From Saccharopolyspora endophytica (GTDB lineage Bacteria; Actinomycetota; Actinomycetes; Mycobacteriales; Pseudonocardiaceae): DNA of 64,000 nucleotides. The stretch lies in contig NZ_JAGPXE010000001.1 in assembly GCF_018070075.1 (NCBI RefSeq), positions 62,001 through 126,000 of the forward strand. The letters are read 5' to 3'. Of this stretch, positions 1 through 8,066 are shown one piece after another (within the stretch, counting starts at the first letter, position 1; each line of letters starts with the position of its first letter). The notes under the pieces are model-generated. The model saw only the letters and a program-made list of their open reading frames with translations. It did not search any database and was not told the origin of the DNA. A program made the position numbers and the translations under genes.

Positions 1-755
1 CACGACGTGATGTCGAAGCCGTAGGCGTCGGCCAGTTCGCGGTGCCACTCGGCCGGATAGCCCATCCGCAGGCTCCCCACCGCGATCGGCGTCAGGTCCC
101 ACTCGGGCTGCCCGATGCACAGCGAGTCCAGATCGCACAGCAGCGGGCCGTCCGGGCCACCGATCACGTTGCCCAGGTGGGCGTCCGCGTGGATGACCGC
201 GCGCGGCAGCGGGAACTCCAGCCCGTCGAGCTGCTCCTCCAGGTAATCGCACCGCTGCTGGAGGAACGCGTGGTCCTCCGGGTCGATGTCCACCGCGTCG
301 TTCAGCCGACGCCGGATGTCGGCCATCGGCCTCCAGGGCTTGAACGTCTCCTCGGCGAGCGGCTGGGAGTGCATCTGGCGCAGCAGATTCCCCAGGTCGG
401 CGCTGCCCGGCACCCGGCCCTCCTCGGGCACGAACTGCCACAGCGTCCCGCAGTGCGCACCGGAGTTGACCGGTTGCTCCACACCCGGGAGCAACCGCAC
501 CGCGGGCACCCCGTGCATCGCGAGCCAGTGCGCGGCCTCGACGGCGGTGCGCGCCCGGTGGGCGAACGACGAGGACAGCACGACGCGAACGATCACGGGT
601 TCGTCCCTCAGCAGGAAAACCCCGTTGTTGATGCACCTGATCAGCCGAGCGCCACGCGGGTTCAGGCCGACGGTCTCGCAGATCTCGGTCAGCGCCAGTT
701 CCAGTTCCGGGGGGACGCTCTGACCCTGTTGAACCTGGTATGTCTTCATGCTCAT
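1..755 (-). CDS. Phosphotransferase (APH-type kinase fold), partial
   Basis: Reading the minus strand from an ATG at 755 gives an open frame of 251 codons that runs off the window start, so the C-terminus is missing. Near residue 200 it has the catalytic-loop motif IHADAHLGN (family form HGDLHxxN), followed by a metal-binding CDLDSL segment and QPEWDL, as in aminoglycoside/choline-kinase-like phosphotransferases (APH family). The substrate cannot be deduced; many such actinobacterial proteins are not resistance enzymes. A second ATG at 749 is an alternative start; neither has a strong ribosome site. The gene lies 48 bases downstream of the XRE regulator on the same strand, which suggests co-transcription. 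Confidence 0.8.
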   Translation of the reverse strand, partial: MSMKTYQVQQGQSVPPELELALTEICETVGLNPRGARLIRCINNGVFLLRDEPVIVRVVLSSSFAHRARTAVEAAHWLAMHGVPAVRLLPGVEQPVNSGAHCGTLWQFVPEEGRVPGSADLGNLLRQMHSQPLAEETFKPWRPMADIRRRLNDAVDIDPEDHAFLQQRCDYLEEQLDGLEFPLPRAVIHADAHLGNVIGGPDGPLLCDLDSLCIGQPEWDLTPIAVGSLRMGYPAEWHRELADAYGFDITS

Positions 756-803: not shown

Positions 804-2174
804 TCACGCCTGGCGGAACCGCCGGACTTCCTCGAAGAGGTCGCGGGAATCCGAGTTGGCCCGGTTCTTGCCCGCTTCCAGCTCCAGTGGTTTGAGCCGG
901 TCGGCGACCCGGGCGGACTTCACGCGCTCACCGAACTGCAGCGCACGACGCCCGACCTTCAGGCCCTCCTGAACGTCGCCGGCCCGGAAGTGGTTGGTTG
1001 CCTGCAGGCTCAACCCGAAAACGTGGGTTCGCTGCATGTCCGCGCCATAGGCCTCGTTGCACTTGATGGTCTCGGCGACCGCGATCGAGGCGTGCTTCTT
1101 GGGATCGAACACCGCCAGCGCGTCGTGCGCGGAGCCGATCATGCCGTGCAGGTCGTTCTCGGTGAAGAAGCGGACCCAGTCCGGAGCGTCGTCCACGTTG
1201 GCGCGGGCGAACTCGTCCTTGGTGCGGCCCACCATCTTCTGCACCTGGTCGGGCTTGTTGAGCATCCCGTAGGCCCACGCCTCGTTCGCGCACAACACCG
1301 CGACGGTCAGCGAAGAACCCGATTCCTGGGCCGCGATCTGGCCCAGCTGGAACAGCTTCAGCGCCTCGTTGGGCTCCTGGTAGTGCAGGTAGACCCGGCC
1401 CATCCGGTACAGCACGCTGGCCACGAGGCTGTCGTCGTCGGCGCGCTTGGCGAACTCCAGCGCGCGGCCGAAGTGGCTGCGCGCCGGGTCCAGCAGGCCC
1501 ACGTCGAACGAGGTCCAGCCGGCCAGGCTGTGCATGTCCGCCAGCGCCACGAACAGCTGCTTGCGGACGGGATCGCTGGAGGTGGAGTCCAGCAGCTGCT
1601 GGGCCCACGAAAGCTGGGCGACCACGGCGTCGCGGCAGGTGCCGCCGCCGTATCGGTAGTCGAGGTCACGCAGGGCCTTGGTGGCGGCCTGAATCTGCTG
1701 CACATCGGTCATGCCGATGCGCGTCGGAGCCGGAGTCTGGGCGTTGGCGGGCGCCCAAGCGCTGTCTTCGGTGCCGAACACCGCGGCGCCCATGGTCACC
1801 GCGGCCGCGTGGGACAGGAACTTCCGACGCTTCACCGATTCGTCCTCCTCAGCTTCCAGGGCGTTCGTCGCTTTCGCGACCCGCATGGCGGTCGCCCCGT
1901 CGTAGGCGAGGCCCATGTAGCCCCGCGGGATGCCGAGCCCGTCGGCTATTCGGGCCAGCACGTCATACGCCATGACCTGCCGACCCTTGAGGATCTCGGA
2001 CACCTCGGACTGGGATTGGCCCGTCGAGGCGGCGATCTGCCGCTGCGAGACCCCGTGCCGGCGCAGTTGCCGGTAGACCTCGCTGACGTCCCTCCGGGCC
2101 AGCGCATCCCGCATCTCCCGCTCGTTCCAGACGTCGGGAGTAACGGGCGAGCCGCCAGATCCGATGATGTTCAT
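804..2174 (-). CDS. XRE-family regulator with TPR-like C-terminal region
   Basis: 456 residues. Residues about 30-95 form a helix-turn-helix of the XRE/Cro type (VSQRQIAASTGQSQSEVSEI). A basic KRRKF segment with a hydrophobic alanine-rich stretch follows near residue 120. The remaining roughly 300 residues are helical and repeat-like (LLDPARSHFGRALEFAKRAD; HYQEPNEALKLFQLGQIA), as in TPR-type actinobacterial regulators of development or secondary metabolism, for example the NsdA group; that comparison is from memory. The ATG at 2174 was chosen over the longer frame because AGGGGG sits 5 bases upstream. Its ligand and targets are unknown. It precedes the phosphotransferase gene in the same direction. 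Confidence 0.8.
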   Translation of the reverse strand: MNIIGSGGSPVTPDVWNEREMRDALARRDVSEVYRQLRRHGVSQRQIAASTGQSQSEVSEILKGRQVMAYDVLARIADGLGIPRGYMGLAYDGATAMRVAKATNALEAEEDESVKRRKFLSHAAAVTMGAAVFGTEDSAWAPANAQTPAPTRIGMTDVQQIQAATKALRDLDYRYGGGTCRDAVVAQLSWAQQLLDSTSSDPVRKQLFVALADMHSLAGWTSFDVGLLDPARSHFGRALEFAKRADDDSLVASVLYRMGRVYLHYQEPNEALKLFQLGQIAAQESGSSLTVAVLCANEAWAYGMLNKPDQVQKMVGRTKDEFARANVDDAPDWVRFFTENDLHGMIGSAHDALAVFDPKKHASIAVAETIKCNEAYGADMQRTHVFGLSLQATNHFRAGDVQEGLKVGRRALQFGERVKSARVADRLKPLELEAGKNRANSDSRDLFEEVRRFRQA

Positions 2175-2398
2175 TTGACCCCCTGACGCTCTCAAACGGG
2201 CGTTGTTCGCAGAGTAAGCGCACTGCGGCAACTCGGTGAAGCCCGTATCGGTAGAGGTGATCGGTTGCGGTGAAGTCCGCTTACCGCTCGTCGCGGCCTT
2301 CGGTCCGGTCGTCGCCTGTCCTCTAGGCGAAGCGACCGCCAGGCATCAATGTAGTCATCAGCAAGCAACGAGCACAGACGGGATCTGGGGCACAGGCG

Positions 2399-2653
2399 AT
2401 GGACATTCGAGCGACGAACTCGCGGCAGGAGGGTGACGGAACCCCGCACGTTCCGGAACCCGCCGACCGCCGTCGCTGGTGGCACGTCGACTGCCGCGAT
2501 GTCGCGAACGCGCATCGGAACCTGGCCGTGCTCGTCAACAGGGACAAGGTGGTGCTCGTCGGACCGCCCGGCCACGCCGCGGAACTCGAAAGCCGTGGTG
2601 CGGGTCAGTTGTCGATGGCGTTGCGGGATGCCGCAACGCAGGCGAGAAAGTGA
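2399..2653 (+). CDS. Small conserved-looking hypothetical protein (84 aa)
   Basis: 84 residues from an ATG at 2399. No domain is recognised. The central part (RRWWHVDCRDVANAHRNLAV, then LVNRDKVVLVGPPGHAAEL) has a compact alpha/beta look, with two tryptophans and one cysteine. It lies 13 bases upstream of the next gene on the same strand and is probably co-transcribed with it. It is divergent from the XRE regulator, and the roughly 220 bases between them should hold both promoters. Coding status rests on amino-acid composition and on the tightly spaced neighbour. Confidence 0.6.
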   Translation: MDIRATNSRQEGDGTPHVPEPADRRRWWHVDCRDVANAHRNLAVLVNRDKVVLVGPPGHAAELESRGAGQLSMALRDAATQARK

Positions 2654-2666
2654 CGGTGGACGTCTC

Positions 2667-3005
2667 ATGGACGAGATCCTGGGGCAGGTGTTGCGCAGCG
2701 CGGTGCGTGAGCGGCTCGATGTTCTTTCCGAGCTCGCCGACCGCGCGGACGCCTCCTCCCTGCTCTCCGTGGCGCGCTCCGAACTCCCGCGGCTGACCGC
2801 GGGGTGGCGGGCGCTGCTCACCGCGCACGAAGCCGACGAGAAGGGCAACTGCCCAGAGTGCTCCGGACGTCGACGCCCAACGAAAGCACCGTGCTCGGTG
2901 TGGGAGTCGGCCTACGAACACCTGGTCGCAGGAGCCCTGGCACCCCGTCCCGCACGGCACCTGCGACCGGCGCACGCTTTGCAGCCGGCCACGCCGGTGC
3001 CGTAA
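2667..3005 (+). CDS. Small hypothetical protein with CPEC zinc-knuckle-like motif (112 aa)
   Basis: 112 residues from an ATG at 2667 with GGTGG 7 bases upstream. The N-terminal half is helical (ERLDVLSELADRADASSLLS). The middle contains GNCPECSGRRRPTKAPCSVW, a Cys-x-x-Cys pair plus a third cysteine that may bind zinc, followed by a tail rich in His, Ala and Pro. I recall similar proteins in Pseudonocardiaceae without a known function. The longer upstream frame on this strand was rejected because it overlaps the preceding gene and has no ribosome site. A strong hairpin lies about 260 bases downstream. Confidence 0.6.
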   Translation: MDEILGQVLRSAVRERLDVLSELADRADASSLLSVARSELPRLTAGWRALLTAHEADEKGNCPECSGRRRPTKAPCSVWESAYEHLVAGALAPRPARHLRPAHALQPATPVP

Positions 3006-3610
3006 GCCGGCGGACTCGGACCCGGACAGCAGCACCTCCTCCCCGACCCGGGACCGAGCAACCGCCAGGTGGCGGCCGATGAGCGCTTAGTCGCGAATCC
3101 CCGACCCCGGCCAACGCGAGTCGGCCGCCACCAAGCTCCACCGCTGTGACAACACAAGACTTCCGCGGGCCGGTGCTGACGCACTCCCCTCCCCCCGACC
3201 GGTACCGGTCCGCGGACTCCAACCACTCCGGATCACCGTTTCCCCGGACGGCCCGGAGGTGGAAAAGGCCCTGGACGCGACCTCCCCGACTCGCGCCCAG
3301 GGCCTTTCCTTATTTCGGAGTTTTCAGGTTGGTCGTCTCTCGGTGCCGGTCAGGTTCGGGTGTTCGGCGAGGTTTTGGGGTTCTGCTCACTGACACGACT
3401 CTGTGGTCGTTCTGCTCAGCGGTGCCAGAAGCGGAACCTGAGCGGCGCTGTGGACTCCGCGCGCCACGACTGATGTATGTCCAATACACGGCGTCGAGAC
3501 GTGCTCGCCACAGCACCGCTCAGAACCCGCGGCGGTGCCGGTTGCTCAGGTGGGGTACTGCGAAACCGGCTTCGCCGGTTGCCTGACGTTGGCCCGCTCG
3601 TTCGTTCTTC
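3006..3610. other. Intergenic region between convergent genes
   Basis: No convincing gene is seen. The region holds the hairpin terminator at 3266-3309 and a smaller hairpin (AACCGGC, loop, GCCGGTT) at 3564-3580 just beyond the stop of the minus-strand gene. Open frames here have poor composition and no ribosome sites. Confidence 0.5.
3266..3309. terminator. Hairpin terminator between convergent genes
   Basis: AAAGGCCCTGG (3266-3276) pairs perfectly with CCAGGGCCTTT (3299-3309). The flanks are A-rich on the left and T-rich on the right, so it could act in both directions. It lies between the end of the small CPEC gene and the end of the DIT1/PvcA fusion gene. Confidence 0.65.
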
Positions 3611-6600
3611 CTACTTCCTTCGGAGTCTTGCCCTTTCGGCGAAGTCCGGTTCCAGGCGCAGTCCCTCTCTGGGTGACACTCCGCGTGGGGTGGGGACGTT
3701 CGGGGGTTCGATGAGCTGGGTGCGGTCTGCGGGGACCATGGCCCAGGGTTGGCGGGGACCCAGGAGCGGTGAGTAGACCGGGACGAAACCCTGGTCCAGC
3801 AGCGAGATCGCGAAATCGATCGCCACGTGGCCGCGCGGGTCCAGCACTCCGGTGCCCTGCCAGGGGAGCAGGCCCGAACCGCCGAGGTAGGTGAAGCCGA
3901 GGCAGCCCTGCCGGACCGCGCTGAGCGTCAACCGCACCCGGTTCGGGAACATCCGCTCGTAGCCGAACTCCTCGTCCACCTGCATCGTCGCCATGTAGCG
4001 GATGACGGTGTGCCACGCGCGGCGCAGCACCGCACGTCGTCCTTGCCGGACCTCGGCGGAAGCGCTGGGATCGCTGACGTTGTAGATGTCGGCGTACAGG
4101 GCGGCCGACCACTCCAGCCGATCGGTGCCCGCCGGGACCGTCACCGGGACCGAGTACACCAGCGACATCAGGATTTCCCGGAACAGCCCGATCACGTGCG
4201 GCGCGAACTCGGCCTCCGACATCGACCAGTCGTGCACCGCTTCCAGGGTGCGCAACGGGTTGTCGGTGATGTCGAAGTCGCGCAACCGATCGCTGAGCAG
4301 CTTCCGGTAGTTCGCGATCCGGCGGGCGCGCTCGGCGGGAAGGCCCGGACCGAGCCGCTGCTCGGCGACCTCGTCGATGTCGGCCACCGTCGTCCGGTCC
4401 CCGATGCCGACGAGATCCACGTACTCGCGCAGCTTCCGCTGGTAGGCGTCGGCGATCGCGGCCGGCCTGCTCCGGAAGTGCCTGCCGTCGGTGAGGATGT
4501 TGAAGTGCAGCCCCGGCGGGTACACGGCCGCGACCGCGCGCTGCATCTCCCGCAACCGCGCCATCGCGCCCAGCTCCGCCAGGTCCGGCAGCGGGCCGGA
4601 CGCCTTGAGCCGGTTCAGGCACTGCTTGACCGGGAATCCCAGCAGCACGACGTCGATCGGTTCCCCCGCGCGCACCGGGGTTTCGGCGTCCCGCTTGAGA
4701 TCGGCGAGCCGGTAGTTGGCGCGCGAGCCCTTGATGAACTGCTTGCGGGTCAGCACGTGGTGCAGCGCGGCGAGCACCCGCTCGACGTCGCCCGGGTGCT
4801 CGTCCAGGCCGAACTTCGCGATCGCGCCGCGGCCGGTGCGCTGCGCGGCCCGGTCGGTGTCGGCGACGATCGAGTCCACGATGGACTGCGTCTCGCCCTC
4901 GGTGAGGTGCACCGCCCAGCGGCCGGCCAGCCGGTTCCGGCGCATCGCGCCGATCTGCAGCTCCTCCAGGGAATGCGTGTTGGACAGCTTCGGTCCGCCC
5001 GGAGCGCTGGGCCGCGTCTCGAAGGTGGCGATCACCGCGGCGTCGTCGGCGGCGGGGGCGTCCGGCCGCCGCTGCGCGGCCAGGCCCGGGATCTCGACCG
5101 CGACCGGCAGCGCGTCGCCGAACTCCGCGCGCACCGCCGTCCTGTTCTCCCCCTCGTCGTCGAAGACCGCGACGACGTCCAGCCCGCCGAGGGCGCGGAT
5201 GCGCTCCGCCTTGACCTCGGCGACCGGCCGGGAGACGTCGCTCGGCACGACCAGCAGCGTCGCGTCCGGCACACCGGCGTCGGCCAGCAGCTCGGCGGTG
5301 ATCTCGCGGAACCGCTCCTTGCGGGCGGTGCAGAACACCACCTGGCCCCCGGCGTCCTGGACGTCCCAGACGAACCGGGCCAGACCGGCGTTGACGCTGT
5401 CGGTGCGCAGCCGCTCGCGCGGCCGGGACTGGAAGGCGCGCAGGAAATCACCGCGCAGCGCGTCCCAGTCCACCGCCGGGTAGCGCTCGCCGAGGCCCGA
5501 GGAGCGCACGAAGTTCTCCCAGCTGCCGGGCAGGTGCGTCGGCAGCACCGGAAGCGTGGCCGGACCGGCCAGTTCGAGGATGCCGCCGGGCGCGCCCGGA
5601 CGAGGTCCGGAGATCGCGCGGGCCGCGTCGGTGATCCGCTGCAGCGGGATCAGCCCGCACAGGTCGACGTCGATGACCACGGCGGGACGCGGTGCGTCCG
5701 GGTTCCAGCGGCGCTCGCGGGTGCCCTGCTGGACGCGGTCGAGCACCGACTTGAGCACGCTGTCCTGGCTCTCCGGCACGGTGTGCGCGTAGCTCTGCAG
5801 CGGCTGCTCACCGGAGAGCAGCTCGGCGGTGTGCGGCGCGAGGTAGCGCAGCTCCTCGCCGATGACCCGCCACACCGCGTCGCGCACCTCGCGACCGCGG
5901 TCACCGGCGCGCAGCGAGGCGAAGCCCTCGCCCAGCCGTTCCAGGGTGCTGACCAGCCCCCGGACCCCGGTGGTGACCTCCGCGCGGCTCGGCTCTGCGG
6001 TGATCCGCTCGTGGTCGGTGACCACGATCCGGCCGGTGGCCTGCAGCTCCGGCGAGAGCTCGACGGCGAAACCCGTCTCGTCCAGCGCGAAGAGACCGAG
6101 GCCGTGGGCGTCCAGCGCCAGCCGGAACACCCGCAGCAGCGGCCGGACGAAGTGCTCCAGGAAGTGGTCGAGCTCGTCCTCGCGGCGCGCGAACCGGTTG
6201 TCCAGCACGACGCGCAGCAGCTTCGGGGTGCCGTCGGAGTCCGGGTGCAGCAGCGCGTCGAGGTCGGCGGCGATGGTGCCGCCGGGGTGCCTGGGGTGCG
6301 CGGGGGCCGGGTCGATGACCCGCAGCAGCGCGGTCGTCCCGGTGCCGGTGTCGACCACCGCGCCCGGCACCGGCTGGGTGGCGCAGTGCATCCGCAGTTC
6401 CGGGTCGCCGGCGACGACCGAGGCGAACCGCTCCCAGCCGCGCAGCGCGCGCAACGCCTGGTCGCGGGAGTCGATGGCCTGCACGCGAACGGCGCGCTCC
6501 CGTCGGCCGACGGTCACCCCGGCTTCGGGGAACGGCACCTTCGGCCCGGTCCCGGGGCCGCGCAGCGAGGCGAGCACCCGGTGCGCCAGTTCGCGGTCGG

Positions 6601-7009
6601 TGCCGCAGACCAGGTCGACGCGCTCGGCCGGAACCTCGGTGACCCGCGGTCGCGCGGTGCGCTCCGGGCTCAGCGATCCGGTGAGCCGGTTCAGCCAGGC
6701 CGCGTCGAAAACCCTCCTGGTCCGCCGTAATCGGACCAGCGCGCGGTACAGGTCGGCCCAGGTCGCCTCCGCGCCCAGCGGGATCCCGGTGCCGACACCG
6801 GCCAGCAGCAGATCACCGTCGGGGGCCTGCTCGACCCACAGCCCGTAGCCCCCGGCGGTGAGCAGGTCGTTCGCCTCGGCGACGGTGAGCAGGCGCCACG
6901 GTCCCGGGGCGGGAATCCCGTCCACCGGCCAGTCGTCCTGCGCGGAGTCCTCCAGCAACGGCAGGTCCGTCTCCACCTGTCGAGCCGTCACCGCTTCCCG
7001 GGCCGTCAC
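3611..7009 (-). CDS. Three-part fusion: N-terminal region, HAD-type domain, DIT1/PvcA isonitrile-synthase-like domain
   Basis: 1132 residues from a GTG at 7009 without a clear ribosome site. Residues 1-430 are not recognised; 260-330 faintly resemble the C-terminal part of IucA/IucC siderophore synthetases. Residues 440-645 show HAD-superfamily motifs in order: VVIDVDLCGL (447-449 DxD), VVFCTARKER, Lys600, and VAVFDDEGEN. Residues about 700-1100 resemble DIT1/PvcA proteins: GFPVKQCLNRLK (791), AVYPPGLHFNILTDGRHF (about 828-845), FPNRVRLTLS (1021) and PWQGTGV (1049). Known family members convert an amino-acid amine to an isonitrile (PvcA/IsnA) or make formyl-tyrosine (Dit1). The HAD domain might act on an activated or phosphorylated intermediate, but that is inference. 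The TetR gene faces it across a palindrome. Confidence 0.75.
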   Translation of the reverse strand: MTAREAVTARQVETDLPLLEDSAQDDWPVDGIPAPGPWRLLTVAEANDLLTAGGYGLWVEQAPDGDLLLAGVGTGIPLGAEATWADLYRALVRLRRTRRVFDAAWLNRLTGSLSPERTARPRVTEVPAERVDLVCGTDRELAHRVLASLRGPGTGPKVPFPEAGVTVGRRERAVRVQAIDSRDQALRALRGWERFASVVAGDPELRMHCATQPVPGAVVDTGTGTTALLRVIDPAPAHPRHPGGTIAADLDALLHPDSDGTPKLLRVVLDNRFARREDELDHFLEHFVRPLLRVFRLALDAHGLGLFALDETGFAVELSPELQATGRIVVTDHERITAEPSRAEVTTGVRGLVSTLERLGEGFASLRAGDRGREVRDAVWRVIGEELRYLAPHTAELLSGEQPLQSYAHTVPESQDSVLKSVLDRVQQGTRERRWNPDAPRPAVVIDVDLCGLIPLQRITDAARAISGPRPGAPGGILELAGPATLPVLPTHLPGSWENFVRSSGLGERYPAVDWDALRGDFLRAFQSRPRERLRTDSVNAGLARFVWDVQDAGGQVVFCTARKERFREITAELLADAGVPDATLLVVPSDVSRPVAEVKAERIRALGGLDVVAVFDDEGENRTAVRAEFGDALPVAVEIPGLAAQRRPDAPAADDAAVIATFETRPSAPGGPKLSNTHSLEELQIGAMRRNRLAGRWAVHLTEGETQSIVDSIVADTDRAAQRTGRGAIAKFGLDEHPGDVERVLAALHHVLTRKQFIKGSRANYRLADLKRDAETPVRAGEPIDVVLLGFPVKQCLNRLKASGPLPDLAELGAMARLREMQRAVAAVYPPGLHFNILTDGRHFRSRPAAIADAYQRKLREYVDLVGIGDRTTVADIDEVAEQRLGPGLPAERARRIANYRKLLSDRLRDFDITDNPLRTLEAVHDWSMSEAEFAPHVIGLFREILMSLVYSVPVTVPAGTDRLEWSAALYADIYNVSDPSASAEVRQGRRAVLRRAWHTVIRYMATMQVDEEFGYERMFPNRVRLTLSAVRQGCLGFTYLGGSGLLPWQGTGVLDPRGHVAIDFAISLLDQGFVPVYSPLLGPRQPWAMVPADRTQLIEPPNVPTPRGVSPREGLRLEPDFAERARLRRK

Positions 7010-7373
7010 GGGGCTGAGCGGACGGTCTCGGCACTCCGGTGGGGGAACCCGGGTGCGGCGAGCAGACGTGGGGCAGCCGTGCAGTAACCCACAATGACCT
7101 TTCTGTCACGGAGAATGACGACTCTCGTCACACTAGATAGCGACCCTCCGCGTTGACAACATGACTCAATGCATACCGGTTTCCTGTAACGCTCACGGAT
7201 CACCAGGCCGAATGGGGTTTTCACCCGCATGGGATGTAACACTTGGCCTAGGTCAAGTGACGCCCAACGAATTCACCCTTTCGCCTGACGACGTTGGCGG
7301 CATGTCCGATACGCACGGATGTCGGCTCAGCAGCAGACTGGTCGGCACAACTCCACAAACACAGGGAGTCGCA
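7010..7373. promoter_or_regulatory. Divergent regulatory region of the DIT1/PvcA fusion and TetR genes
   Basis: 364 bases between two outward-facing starts, if the TTG start of the TetR gene is right. It includes the near-perfect inverted repeat at 7240-7259. Promoter elements could not be assigned with confidence. An open frame runs through it in phase with the TetR gene, so a longer TetR protein starting at 7302 is possible. Confidence 0.5.
7240..7259. promoter_or_regulatory. 20-bp inverted repeat, candidate TetR operator
   Basis: CACTTGGCCT followed directly by AGGTCAAGTG: 9 of 10 positions pair about a central CTAG. Its length and its place between a TetR gene and its divergent neighbour fit an operator. 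Binding is inferred. Confidence 0.5.
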
Positions 7374-8066
7374 TTGCCTGCAGAAATAGCACCGCTGCGG
7401 CGCAAGCCCGTGCAGCAGCGGAGTGCCCAACGAGTGGAGAAGATGCTCGCCGCCACGGCCGGCCTCATCGACGAGGTGGGCTACGACGGATTAACGACCA
7501 CCCTCATCGCGGAACGGGCCGGCGTCGCGGTCGGATCGCTGTACCAGTTCTTCCCGGACAAGCGCGCCGTCGTGCAGGAGCTGACGCTGCGCAACCTGGA
7601 CCGCTTCGTGCGGACGGTGTCCAGCCGCTTCGAGCAGCTGGAGCTCGCGCACTGGTGGGATGCCGTGGACGCGGTCTTCGACACCTACCTGACCATGCAC
7701 CGCGAGGTCCCGGCGTTCAGCCGCTTGCACTTCGGGGACGTGGTCGACCTGCGGCTGCTCGATCCGAGCAAGGACAACAACGCGGTCATCGCGGAGAAGC
7801 TGACCGGGCTGATCGCCGAGGAGTTCCAGCTCGACCCGGCCGACCTCGCCCTGCCGCTGACCGTGGCCGTCGAAGCCGCGGACGCCGTGCTGCACCTGGC
7901 GTTCCGGCGCGATCCCCACGGCGACCAGGCCATGCTGGCCGAGGCCAAGGACCTGGTCCGCGGGTACCTGTCCAACCGGATCACCCAGGGAGAGCGGATG
8001 AGCTCGACCGTGGTCGAGCGGACGATCATGCCGAGTTACCCGAACGACCTGCCTTCCCCCCGGTAG
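7374..8066 (+). CDS. TetR-family transcriptional regulator
   Basis: 230 residues if started at the TTG at 7374, which has AGGGAG 5 bases upstream; an in-frame ATG at 7302 is the main alternative. A typical TetR N-terminal helix-turn-helix is present (GLTTTLIAERAGVAVGSLYQ, then FFPDKRAVVQEL). The C-terminal helical part is the ligand and dimer domain, which shows no recognisable ligand signature. It is divergent from the DIT1/PvcA fusion gene, so local repression of that gene is the simplest guess. Its last 31 bases overlap the end of the convergent racemase-fold gene. Confidence 0.85.
   Translation: MPAEIAPLRRKPVQQRSAQRVEKMLAATAGLIDEVGYDGLTTTLIAERAGVAVGSLYQFFPDKRAVVQELTLRNLDRFVRTVSSRFEQLELAHWWDAVDAVFDTYLTMHREVPAFSRLHFGDVVDLRLLDPSKDNNAVIAEKLTGLIAEEFQLDPADLALPLTVAVEAADAVLHLAFRRDPHGDQAMLAEAKDLVRGYLSNRITQGERMSSTVVERTIMPSYPNDLPSPR

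Follow-up and report, generated by a model that had tools for sequence, protein, structure and literature searches.

Isocyanide synthases of the PvcA/IsnA type and yeast Dit1 are the closest described counterparts of the protein considered here. As far as the available parts of the two sources go, Dit1 is similar to isocyanide synthases without being one, PvcA does not replace Dit1 and the product of Dit1 is most likely formyl tyrosine (PMC7345447); dit1 forms a two-gene cluster with a P450, and fungal isocyanide synthases (ICS) fall into three architectures, namely monodomain, ICS-TauD and ICS-NRPS-like, NRPS denoting nonribosomal peptide synthetase (PMC10153163). The same fungal survey, in its available part, describes bacterial isocyanide synthases as being in need of study (PMC10153163). 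We analyse a gene at 3611-7009 of the window, that is, of the whole stretch of 64,000 nucleotides of Saccharopolyspora endophytica DNA. Its product of 1132 residues appears to represent a new architecture in a soil actinobacterium, in which a fold like that of the NRPS-independent siderophore (NIS) synthetases, a HAD domain and a divergent DIT1/PvcA domain are joined. No NIS-HAD-DIT1 fusion was named in our literature searches, which covered open-licence papers by their titles and the openings of their abstracts. The reading that we favour, tentatively and at a little under an even chance, is that this is one multi-domain protein of many Pseudonocardiaceae, with a divergent DIT1/PvcA-fold catalyst of altered product as its core.

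The open reading frame (ORF) of 1132 residues that the initial annotation had called at 3611-7009 was confirmed, on the minus strand. The frame is taken to be the gene because its GC content at the three codon positions is 0.756/0.500/0.932 and because the ratio of nonsynonymous to synonymous substitution rates (dN/dS) relative to two congeners, L004 and L013, is 0.09-0.32 across four segments, the dN/dS values being rough in view of the high GC and the overlapping antisense ORFs. A plus-strand ORF of 967 aa inside the same coordinates was rejected as a gene, since codon-position GC and dN/dS favour the minus frame. The first possible start is a GTG at 7009, a predicted start only. The nearest named locus, that of S. 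aridisoli, has 97% identity across the whole protein. The scan of 2200-7400 for promoters and terminators gave nothing exceeding chance. The full-protein structure model has a mean local confidence (pLDDT) of 88.9 and a predicted template-modelling score (pTM) of 0.87, with an input alignment of 60 rows without classical PvcA rows. The DIT1/PvcA and HAD motifs quoted earlier, Lys600 included, are all present, with DVDLCG at 447, CTAR at 560, FDDEGEN at 616, GFPVKQCLNRLK at 791, DGRHF at 841 and PNRVRLTLSA at 1022. The gene and its parts are as follows.

3611-7009, minus strand: three-part protein of 1132 aa (NIS-like fold, HAD, DIT1_PvcA-like), from the ORF, profiles and structure model

5714-6952, minus strand: N-terminal region, residues 20-432, with a NIS siderophore-synthetase fold and without NIS motifs, from the model and Foldseek

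5030-5692, minus strand: HAD domain, residues ~440-660, with DxD 447/449, T561, K600 and DD 617-618, from motifs and fold

3710-4972, minus strand: DIT1_PvcA-like domain, residues ~680-1100, from Pfam (3.8e-16), hhalign (1.8e-21) and the PvcA/PIsnA fold

The DIT1/PvcA-type character of the C-terminal domain, on which the earlier proposal had been staked, is upheld by profiles and by structure. The Pfam profile DIT1_PvcA (PF05141) matches the protein at 59.8 bits against a gathering cut-off of 26.4 (E 3.8e-16), over residues 779-908 and profile positions 5-138 of 273, and in the genome scan for this profile the protein scores 63.2 bits. A C-terminal profile of 35 members of its family aligns by hhalign with 9 classical PvcA-type proteins over 273 columns at E 1.8e-21, and the family profile finds PIsnA in the PDB at E 1.4e-14, in the first half only. 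In Foldseek searches with the full model the ranks 1-8 are all PvcA or PIsnA (E 1.4e-9 to 4.8e-8), among them PvcA 3e59 (E 1.4e-9) and, at E 3.7e-9, 9dh4, which is PIsnA with L-Tyr. A tree built from 44 rows puts the 35 rows of the family on one side of a branch with support 98/91 and the 7 PvcAs on one side of a branch with support 100/94; the placing of two further DIT1-like rows, whose branches are very long, is unsure.

We then consider the sequence signature. The classical reference set consists of 24 ORFs from the same family, order and class, selected by FPxKSxN..K. There, RLSIHPQ is found in 24/24, TPWH in 22/24 and GRPSHY in 21/24, and GGSxxxPW[HQ] in 0/24. In the 60 rows of the family of the window protein the three classical motifs are found in 0/60, 0/60 and 0/60, FPxKSxN is likewise absent (0/60), the Ser after FPxK being gone, and GGSxxxPW[HQ] is present in 59/60. 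Thirteen of the classical PvcA-type matches in the family search were retrieved, and L100-L102 lie outside the set of 24; with these three added, RLSIHPQ, TPWH and GRPSHY are found in 27, 25 and 24 of 27. The front half of the pattern is retained, with K795, K802, P808, D809 and D841 present in 60/60 family rows and E812 in 59/60; W1050 and Q1087 are also invariant (60/60), and G842 is present in 50/60, being P or A in all 9 rows of the paralogue described below. The C-terminal domain is thus a divergent branch of the known PvcA fold with an altered signature, and because the classical signature is found in none of the 60 rows, the formation of an isonitrile is less likely than the initial annotation had assumed.

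It is noted that the DIT1_PvcA membership and fold and the fixed front-half residues would also be explained by a functional isonitrile synthase whose active site has changed and yet does the same work. The HAD part would then handle a leftover derived from ribulose 5-phosphate, and a carboxylate partner would be added or held by the NIS-like part. Such a synthase would fit, too, with the relative L099, which still has RLS-P-HP (the degenerate RLS-x-HP occurs in this 1/60 row), and with the PW[HQ] position, where H rather than Q is found in 22/60 rows. By contrast, Q is found there in 38/60 rows and the window protein itself has PWQ, not PWH; the three back-half motifs are missing from every row while being present in 24, 22 and 21 of the 24 classical ORFs; and the L-tyrosine isonitrile synthase model NF045653 gives the window protein 23.4 bits against an equivalog cut-off of 600, this model having been scored on the window protein and not on the collected classical proteins. 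Moreover, the scan of proteins near the gene showed no P450 or NRPS. The earlier remark that no Fe/2OG (iron/2-oxoglutarate) oxygenase gene adjoins it holds for the scanned proteins in the surroundings of the gene and of its paralogue, both direct neighbours included, small and uncalled ORFs not all having been scanned. We consider such an isonitrile synthase unlikely.

That the C-terminal domain would be the core catalyst is suggested by its constraint and by its ability to stand alone. Among 19 chosen pairs its dN/dS is the lowest of the segments in 13, including all three pairs among the window protein, L004 and L013 (0.09-0.14), and this part occurs alone, as a whole gene, in genera g3, g18 and g37 and, in one g20 genome, as an additional copy (L065). 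In the favoured reading, the domain retains the first part of the PvcA pattern (FPxK...K...PDxAE and DG) and probably still couples, as PvcA does, a carbon derived from a sugar phosphate to an amine or amino acid. Because the back half (RLSIHPQ, TPWH and GRPSHY) is remodelled, a classical vinyl isonitrile is a less likely product than a modified compound of N-C1 type, which may resemble a formamide or be something else. An intact HAD domain would strip phosphate from a sugar-phosphate product or by-product, lineages without the HAD motifs would use a separate phosphatase or none, and the part with the NIS fold would hold the substrate or act as a scaffold that packs the assembly.

For the HAD part, the earlier assignment stands by motifs and fold, with DVD 447/449, T561, K600 and DD 617/618 complete in the window protein and a helical insert that lies between motif I and motif II; it does not stand by Pfam, the HAD profiles being weak on this protein (best match 16.3 bits with a cut-off of 27, E 0.0071). 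The fold of the middle part is clearly HAD, with matches to HAD phosphatases at E 2.6e-5 to 1e-3, its neighbours being sugar-phosphate phosphatases (MtlD), class B acid phosphatases (AphA) and other HAD hydrolases. The DxD/T/DD set is complete in 14/15 Saccharopolyspora main rows, 8/11 other main rows, 9/9 paralogue rows, 3/4 g20 rows (the fourth being cut by a contig end), 3/9 g38 rows, 0/4 rows of g43, g24 and f80, and 0/8 stand-alone rows. With the Lys also required, and taking the Lys counts as lower bounds since the alignment shifts at that stretch, the numbers are at least 8/11 for the other main rows, 3/4 for g20, 9/9 for the paralogues, 0/9 for g38, 0/4 for g43, g24 and f80, and 0/8 for the stand-alone rows. 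Incomplete motifs are met in the rows of g38, g43, g24 and g6, and partly elsewhere.

The dN/dS of the HAD segment gives a mixed picture. In the pairs L005-L007, L007-L018, L044-L045 and L062-L073 it is 0.42-0.52, with the C-terminal domain there at 0.09-0.16; the first two of these pairs retain DxD/T/DD without the Lys, and the last two belong to g38. Against a simple reading speak the other decayed pairs L042-L043, L042-L072 and L057-L074, where the HAD value is 0.24-0.32, and one intact pair, L031-L032, where it is 0.41. In both g20 pairs the HAD domain is the most constrained segment (0.08 and 0.17). From the motif decay and the dN/dS pattern across rows and pairs, the HAD domain looks like a real but dispensable module. 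The idea that HAD processing is an essential step of the route is weakened, because the motifs are lost in several lineages where the C-terminal domain stays constrained and because stand-alone C-terminal homologues exist.

The N-terminal region had been described as unrecognised. This remains so by sequence, where a profile search of this part against solved structures gave nothing significant (best E 0.58), and does not remain so by fold. Residues 20-432, modelled separately (pLDDT 90.2, pTM 0.89), match in Foldseek at ranks 1-22 NIS synthetases only (SbnC, IucC, AcsD and IucA), with E from 1.2e-7 (SbnC) to 5.3e-4, probability 1.00 and a TM score by query of 0.38-0.49; from rank 23 on, protein kinases and lipid kinases predominate, and choline kinase and YdiU also appear. 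The full-protein model also matches the NIS synthetases AcsD and IucC by fold. The five NIS motifs (GHP..K.R.G, HPWQ, SxRT, HxQN and KDF) are found in 0/26 family rows and in 14/14 NIS sequences from relatives, on which the patterns were shaped. No match of Pfam IucA_IucC to the window protein is listed at E up to 10; in the genome of the window this profile (PF04183) finds three genes on another contig and not the window gene. Because a NIS fold is combined with 0/26 motif rows, the N-terminal part appears to be a NIS-like fold in which the known synthetase site has been lost or was never present.

The missing NIS motifs, together with the decay of the HAD motifs in several genera and the loss of the PvcA signature, could also be taken to mean that the protein is an enzyme no longer, its three former enzyme domains forming a binding or regulatory scaffold. 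Against this speak the presence of K795, K802, D809, D841, W1050 and Q1087 in 60/60 rows, the complete HAD set in the window protein and in all 9 paralogue rows, and the g20 pairs, in both of which the HAD is under the strongest constraint of all segments (0.08 and 0.17). We regard a scaffold as rather improbable.

Returning to the favoured reading of a divergent DIT1/PvcA-fold catalyst with altered product, several observations weigh against it. The lowest dN/dS belongs to the HAD domain in 4/19 pairs and to the NIS-like part in 2/19. The HAD motifs decay in several genera and, in the Saccharopolyspora main rows, the Lys is in the expected stretch in just 7/15 (again a lower bound), both of which speak against a fixed HAD step. 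The NIS assignment is carried by the fold, with no support from the sequence: hhalign of the N-terminal part with the 14 NIS sequences gave a weak match (probability 2, E 0.024) that agrees with the assignment and is no proof of it, a PvcA control giving probability 0.4 and E 0.15. It could also be that the NIS-like part binds a nucleotide in a way that the motif test misses.

As for the spread, 79/200 genomes of the family (Pseudonocardiaceae) have a match at E <= 1e-3, and 55/200, from 13/46 genera, at E <= 1e-60. The remaining 24 have weak matches (2e-11 or worse) that are mostly PvcA-type or HAD by the matched stretch, an identity not assigned for all 24. The expectation that homologues share the three-part architecture is borne out at both ends, the N- and C-terminal parts both being matched in ten genera (g1, g6, g13, g14, g20, g24, g35, g38, g43 and g46), and less so in the middle, complete HAD motifs being found in rows of five of these (g1, g13, g20, g35 and g46). 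Beyond the family, the full protein at E <= 1e-12 is found in 24/397 genomes of the order, two of these being outside the family, and in 1/396 genomes of the phylum, namely that of the window itself. The C-terminal profile matched 15 of 394 genomes of the class; beyond the window's own genome these are 16 short-range matches in 14 genomes, and 14 of the 16 are classical PvcA ORFs. The other two are DIT1-like proteins of ~415 aa from other actinobacterial families (L126:976-2229 and L134:1321-2565) and belong neither to the classical PvcAs nor to the window family. At L058:8860-11744 (g24) and L099:7015-9317 (f80) the NIS-like and DIT1-like parts lie in two overlapping frames, which may be a real split, a frameshift or an assembly error. 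The stand-alone DIT1-like gene of g20 (472 aa, in L065:6732-12732) has as neighbours a LysR gene, a ROK kinase gene in divergent orientation, a Sa_NUDIX protein and two proteins without annotation, a neighbourhood that could be a separate small pathway; with this stand-alone relative as the sole query, plasmids gave no match. Eighteen of the family genomes that have the gene consist of one contig. Its distance from the contig start is ~43-91 kb in 8 of these, G043 has it close to the end, and the remaining 9 have it at other places, so that a near-origin position is likely for part of the family only, assuming that those contigs start at dnaA.

The surroundings of the gene in the window are as follows.

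1-755, minus strand: APH-type phosphotransferase, cut by the window start and complete in L019:17841-18755

804-2231, minus strand: NsdA-family tetratricopeptide-repeat (TPR) regulator, NCBIfam NF053720, E 4.9e-96

2399-2653, plus strand: conserved small protein of 84 aa, cluster c16, no Pfam match

2667-3005, plus strand: conserved small protein of 112 aa without Pfam match, cluster c10, tail to tail with the gene

7116-7130, no strand assigned: inverted repeat TGACGAGAGTCGTCA (minus-strand reading) in the divergent intergenic region, candidate operator

7161-8066, plus strand: TetR-type regulator, divergent neighbour and family core gene, not specific

In Saccharopolyspora the order is the gene, the two small antisense genes, the NsdA-family regulator, APH, a protein of 102 aa and, last, another HAD-DIT1 protein, so that the view of a lone-protein system does not hold in this genus. 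This second copy, of 805 aa, lies 4.5 kb from the gene and outside the window (G000:C1:58733-61150, or L019:14733-17150, minus strand) and is found in 15/16 named Saccharopolyspora loci, the contig ending first in the sixteenth. In each of the 9 paralogue rows the DG of the DIT1 motif has become DP or DA; the NIS-like part of the second copy is shortened and its dN/dS is 0.34-0.60 (a single pair measured). Tail to tail with it lie DUF1775 and CopC genes (L019:13320-14590, plus strand, outside the window). A TetR gene is divergent from the gene in 16/16 Saccharopolyspora loci and, by gene calling, in at least 6/11 loci of other genera, the caller having missed at least that of G035. The stretch 7010-7160 upstream of the gene is well conserved in six close Saccharopolyspora, contains the TGACGAGAGTCGTCA repeat and also holds an overlapping frame starting MTERSLWVTARLPHV. 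The repeat is found, with identical arms or a single mismatch, in the window and in 5/16 named loci, and is missing from the other 11, on account of which it was not carried further as a TetR operator.

Across the family APH is present in 178/200 genomes, TetR in 169/200 and CopC in 164/180, compared with 55/200 for the gene (E <= 1e-60); the NsdA gene is outside these counts. APH and CopC are close together also in genomes that lack a strong match to the gene (e.g., G034 and G059), and CopC at E <= 1e-15 was not found in the sampled g6, g35 and g38 genomes though the gene is present there. Because TetR, APH and CopC are core genes that occur also without this gene, their nearness is weak evidence of function. 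TetR and APH as functional partners were dropped on this ground, and so was a copper link via CopC and DUF1775, CopC being a family core gene and not specific.

A further alternative is a Dit1-like formylation, by which an amino acid or amine would be N-formylated for use in a polymer of the cell wall or spore wall. Streptomyces NsdA namesakes control sporulation and antibiotic production, and the adjoining NsdA-family regulator would suit such a role. The likeness of Dit1 to isocyanide synthases and its most likely formyl tyrosine product, in the available part of the source, point the same way (PMC7345447). By contrast, the scanned proteins include no P450, and APH, TetR and CopC are found also in genomes without the gene, for which reason the neighbourhood says little on such a role. 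We hold a Dit1-like formylation to be improbable.

A bolder proposal can also be made: that an old fusion of a NIS fold, a HAD phosphatase and an isonitrile-synthase-type domain is a self-contained synthetase of a new class, an assembly line for an undescribed N-C1 metabolite of isonitrile or formamide type, possibly a metal ligand, inherited vertically as a chromosomal trait and not as a secondary-metabolite cluster. As a whole we consider it doubtful, with only a small chance of holding. If it is true that a bacterial branch with a rebuilt pattern has been fused to two further enzyme folds and kept across genera, this would suggest that the fold does more than make isonitriles. The natural series of complete, HAD-decayed and stand-alone proteins would help to find the parts required by the chemistry.

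Finally, we compare the protein with the known systems. With PvcA/IsnA (3e59, 9dh4, 9dhm; NF045653) it shares the fold of residues ~680-1100 and the FPxK...K...PDxAE and DG motifs. It differs in its domain of ~430 residues, whole classical proteins mostly having 300-370, in the family's lack of RLSIHPQ, TPWH, GRPSHY and the Ser after FPxK, in its fusion to two further domains and in having no Fe/2OG gene among the scanned neighbours. Yeast Dit1 names the same Pfam family, DIT1_PvcA, a likeness by description, the sequences not having been compared. The NIS synthetases (SbnC, IucA, IucC and AcsD) share the fold of residues 20-432 (E 1.2e-7), whereas the window part has only ~413 residues, none of the five NIS motifs and no IucA_IucC match. 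The HAD phosphatases (the MtlD phosphatase domain, AphA and beta-phosphoglucomutase) share the fold and the DxD/T/K/DD set of the window protein, while the motifs are incomplete in its g38, g43, g24 and g6 relatives. The fungal multidomain proteins (ICS-TauD and ICS-NRPS-like, e.g., CrmA) likewise fuse an ICS-type domain to others; according to the available part of the survey their partners are TauD or NRPS-like (PMC10153163), whereas those of the window protein are a NIS fold and a HAD domain.

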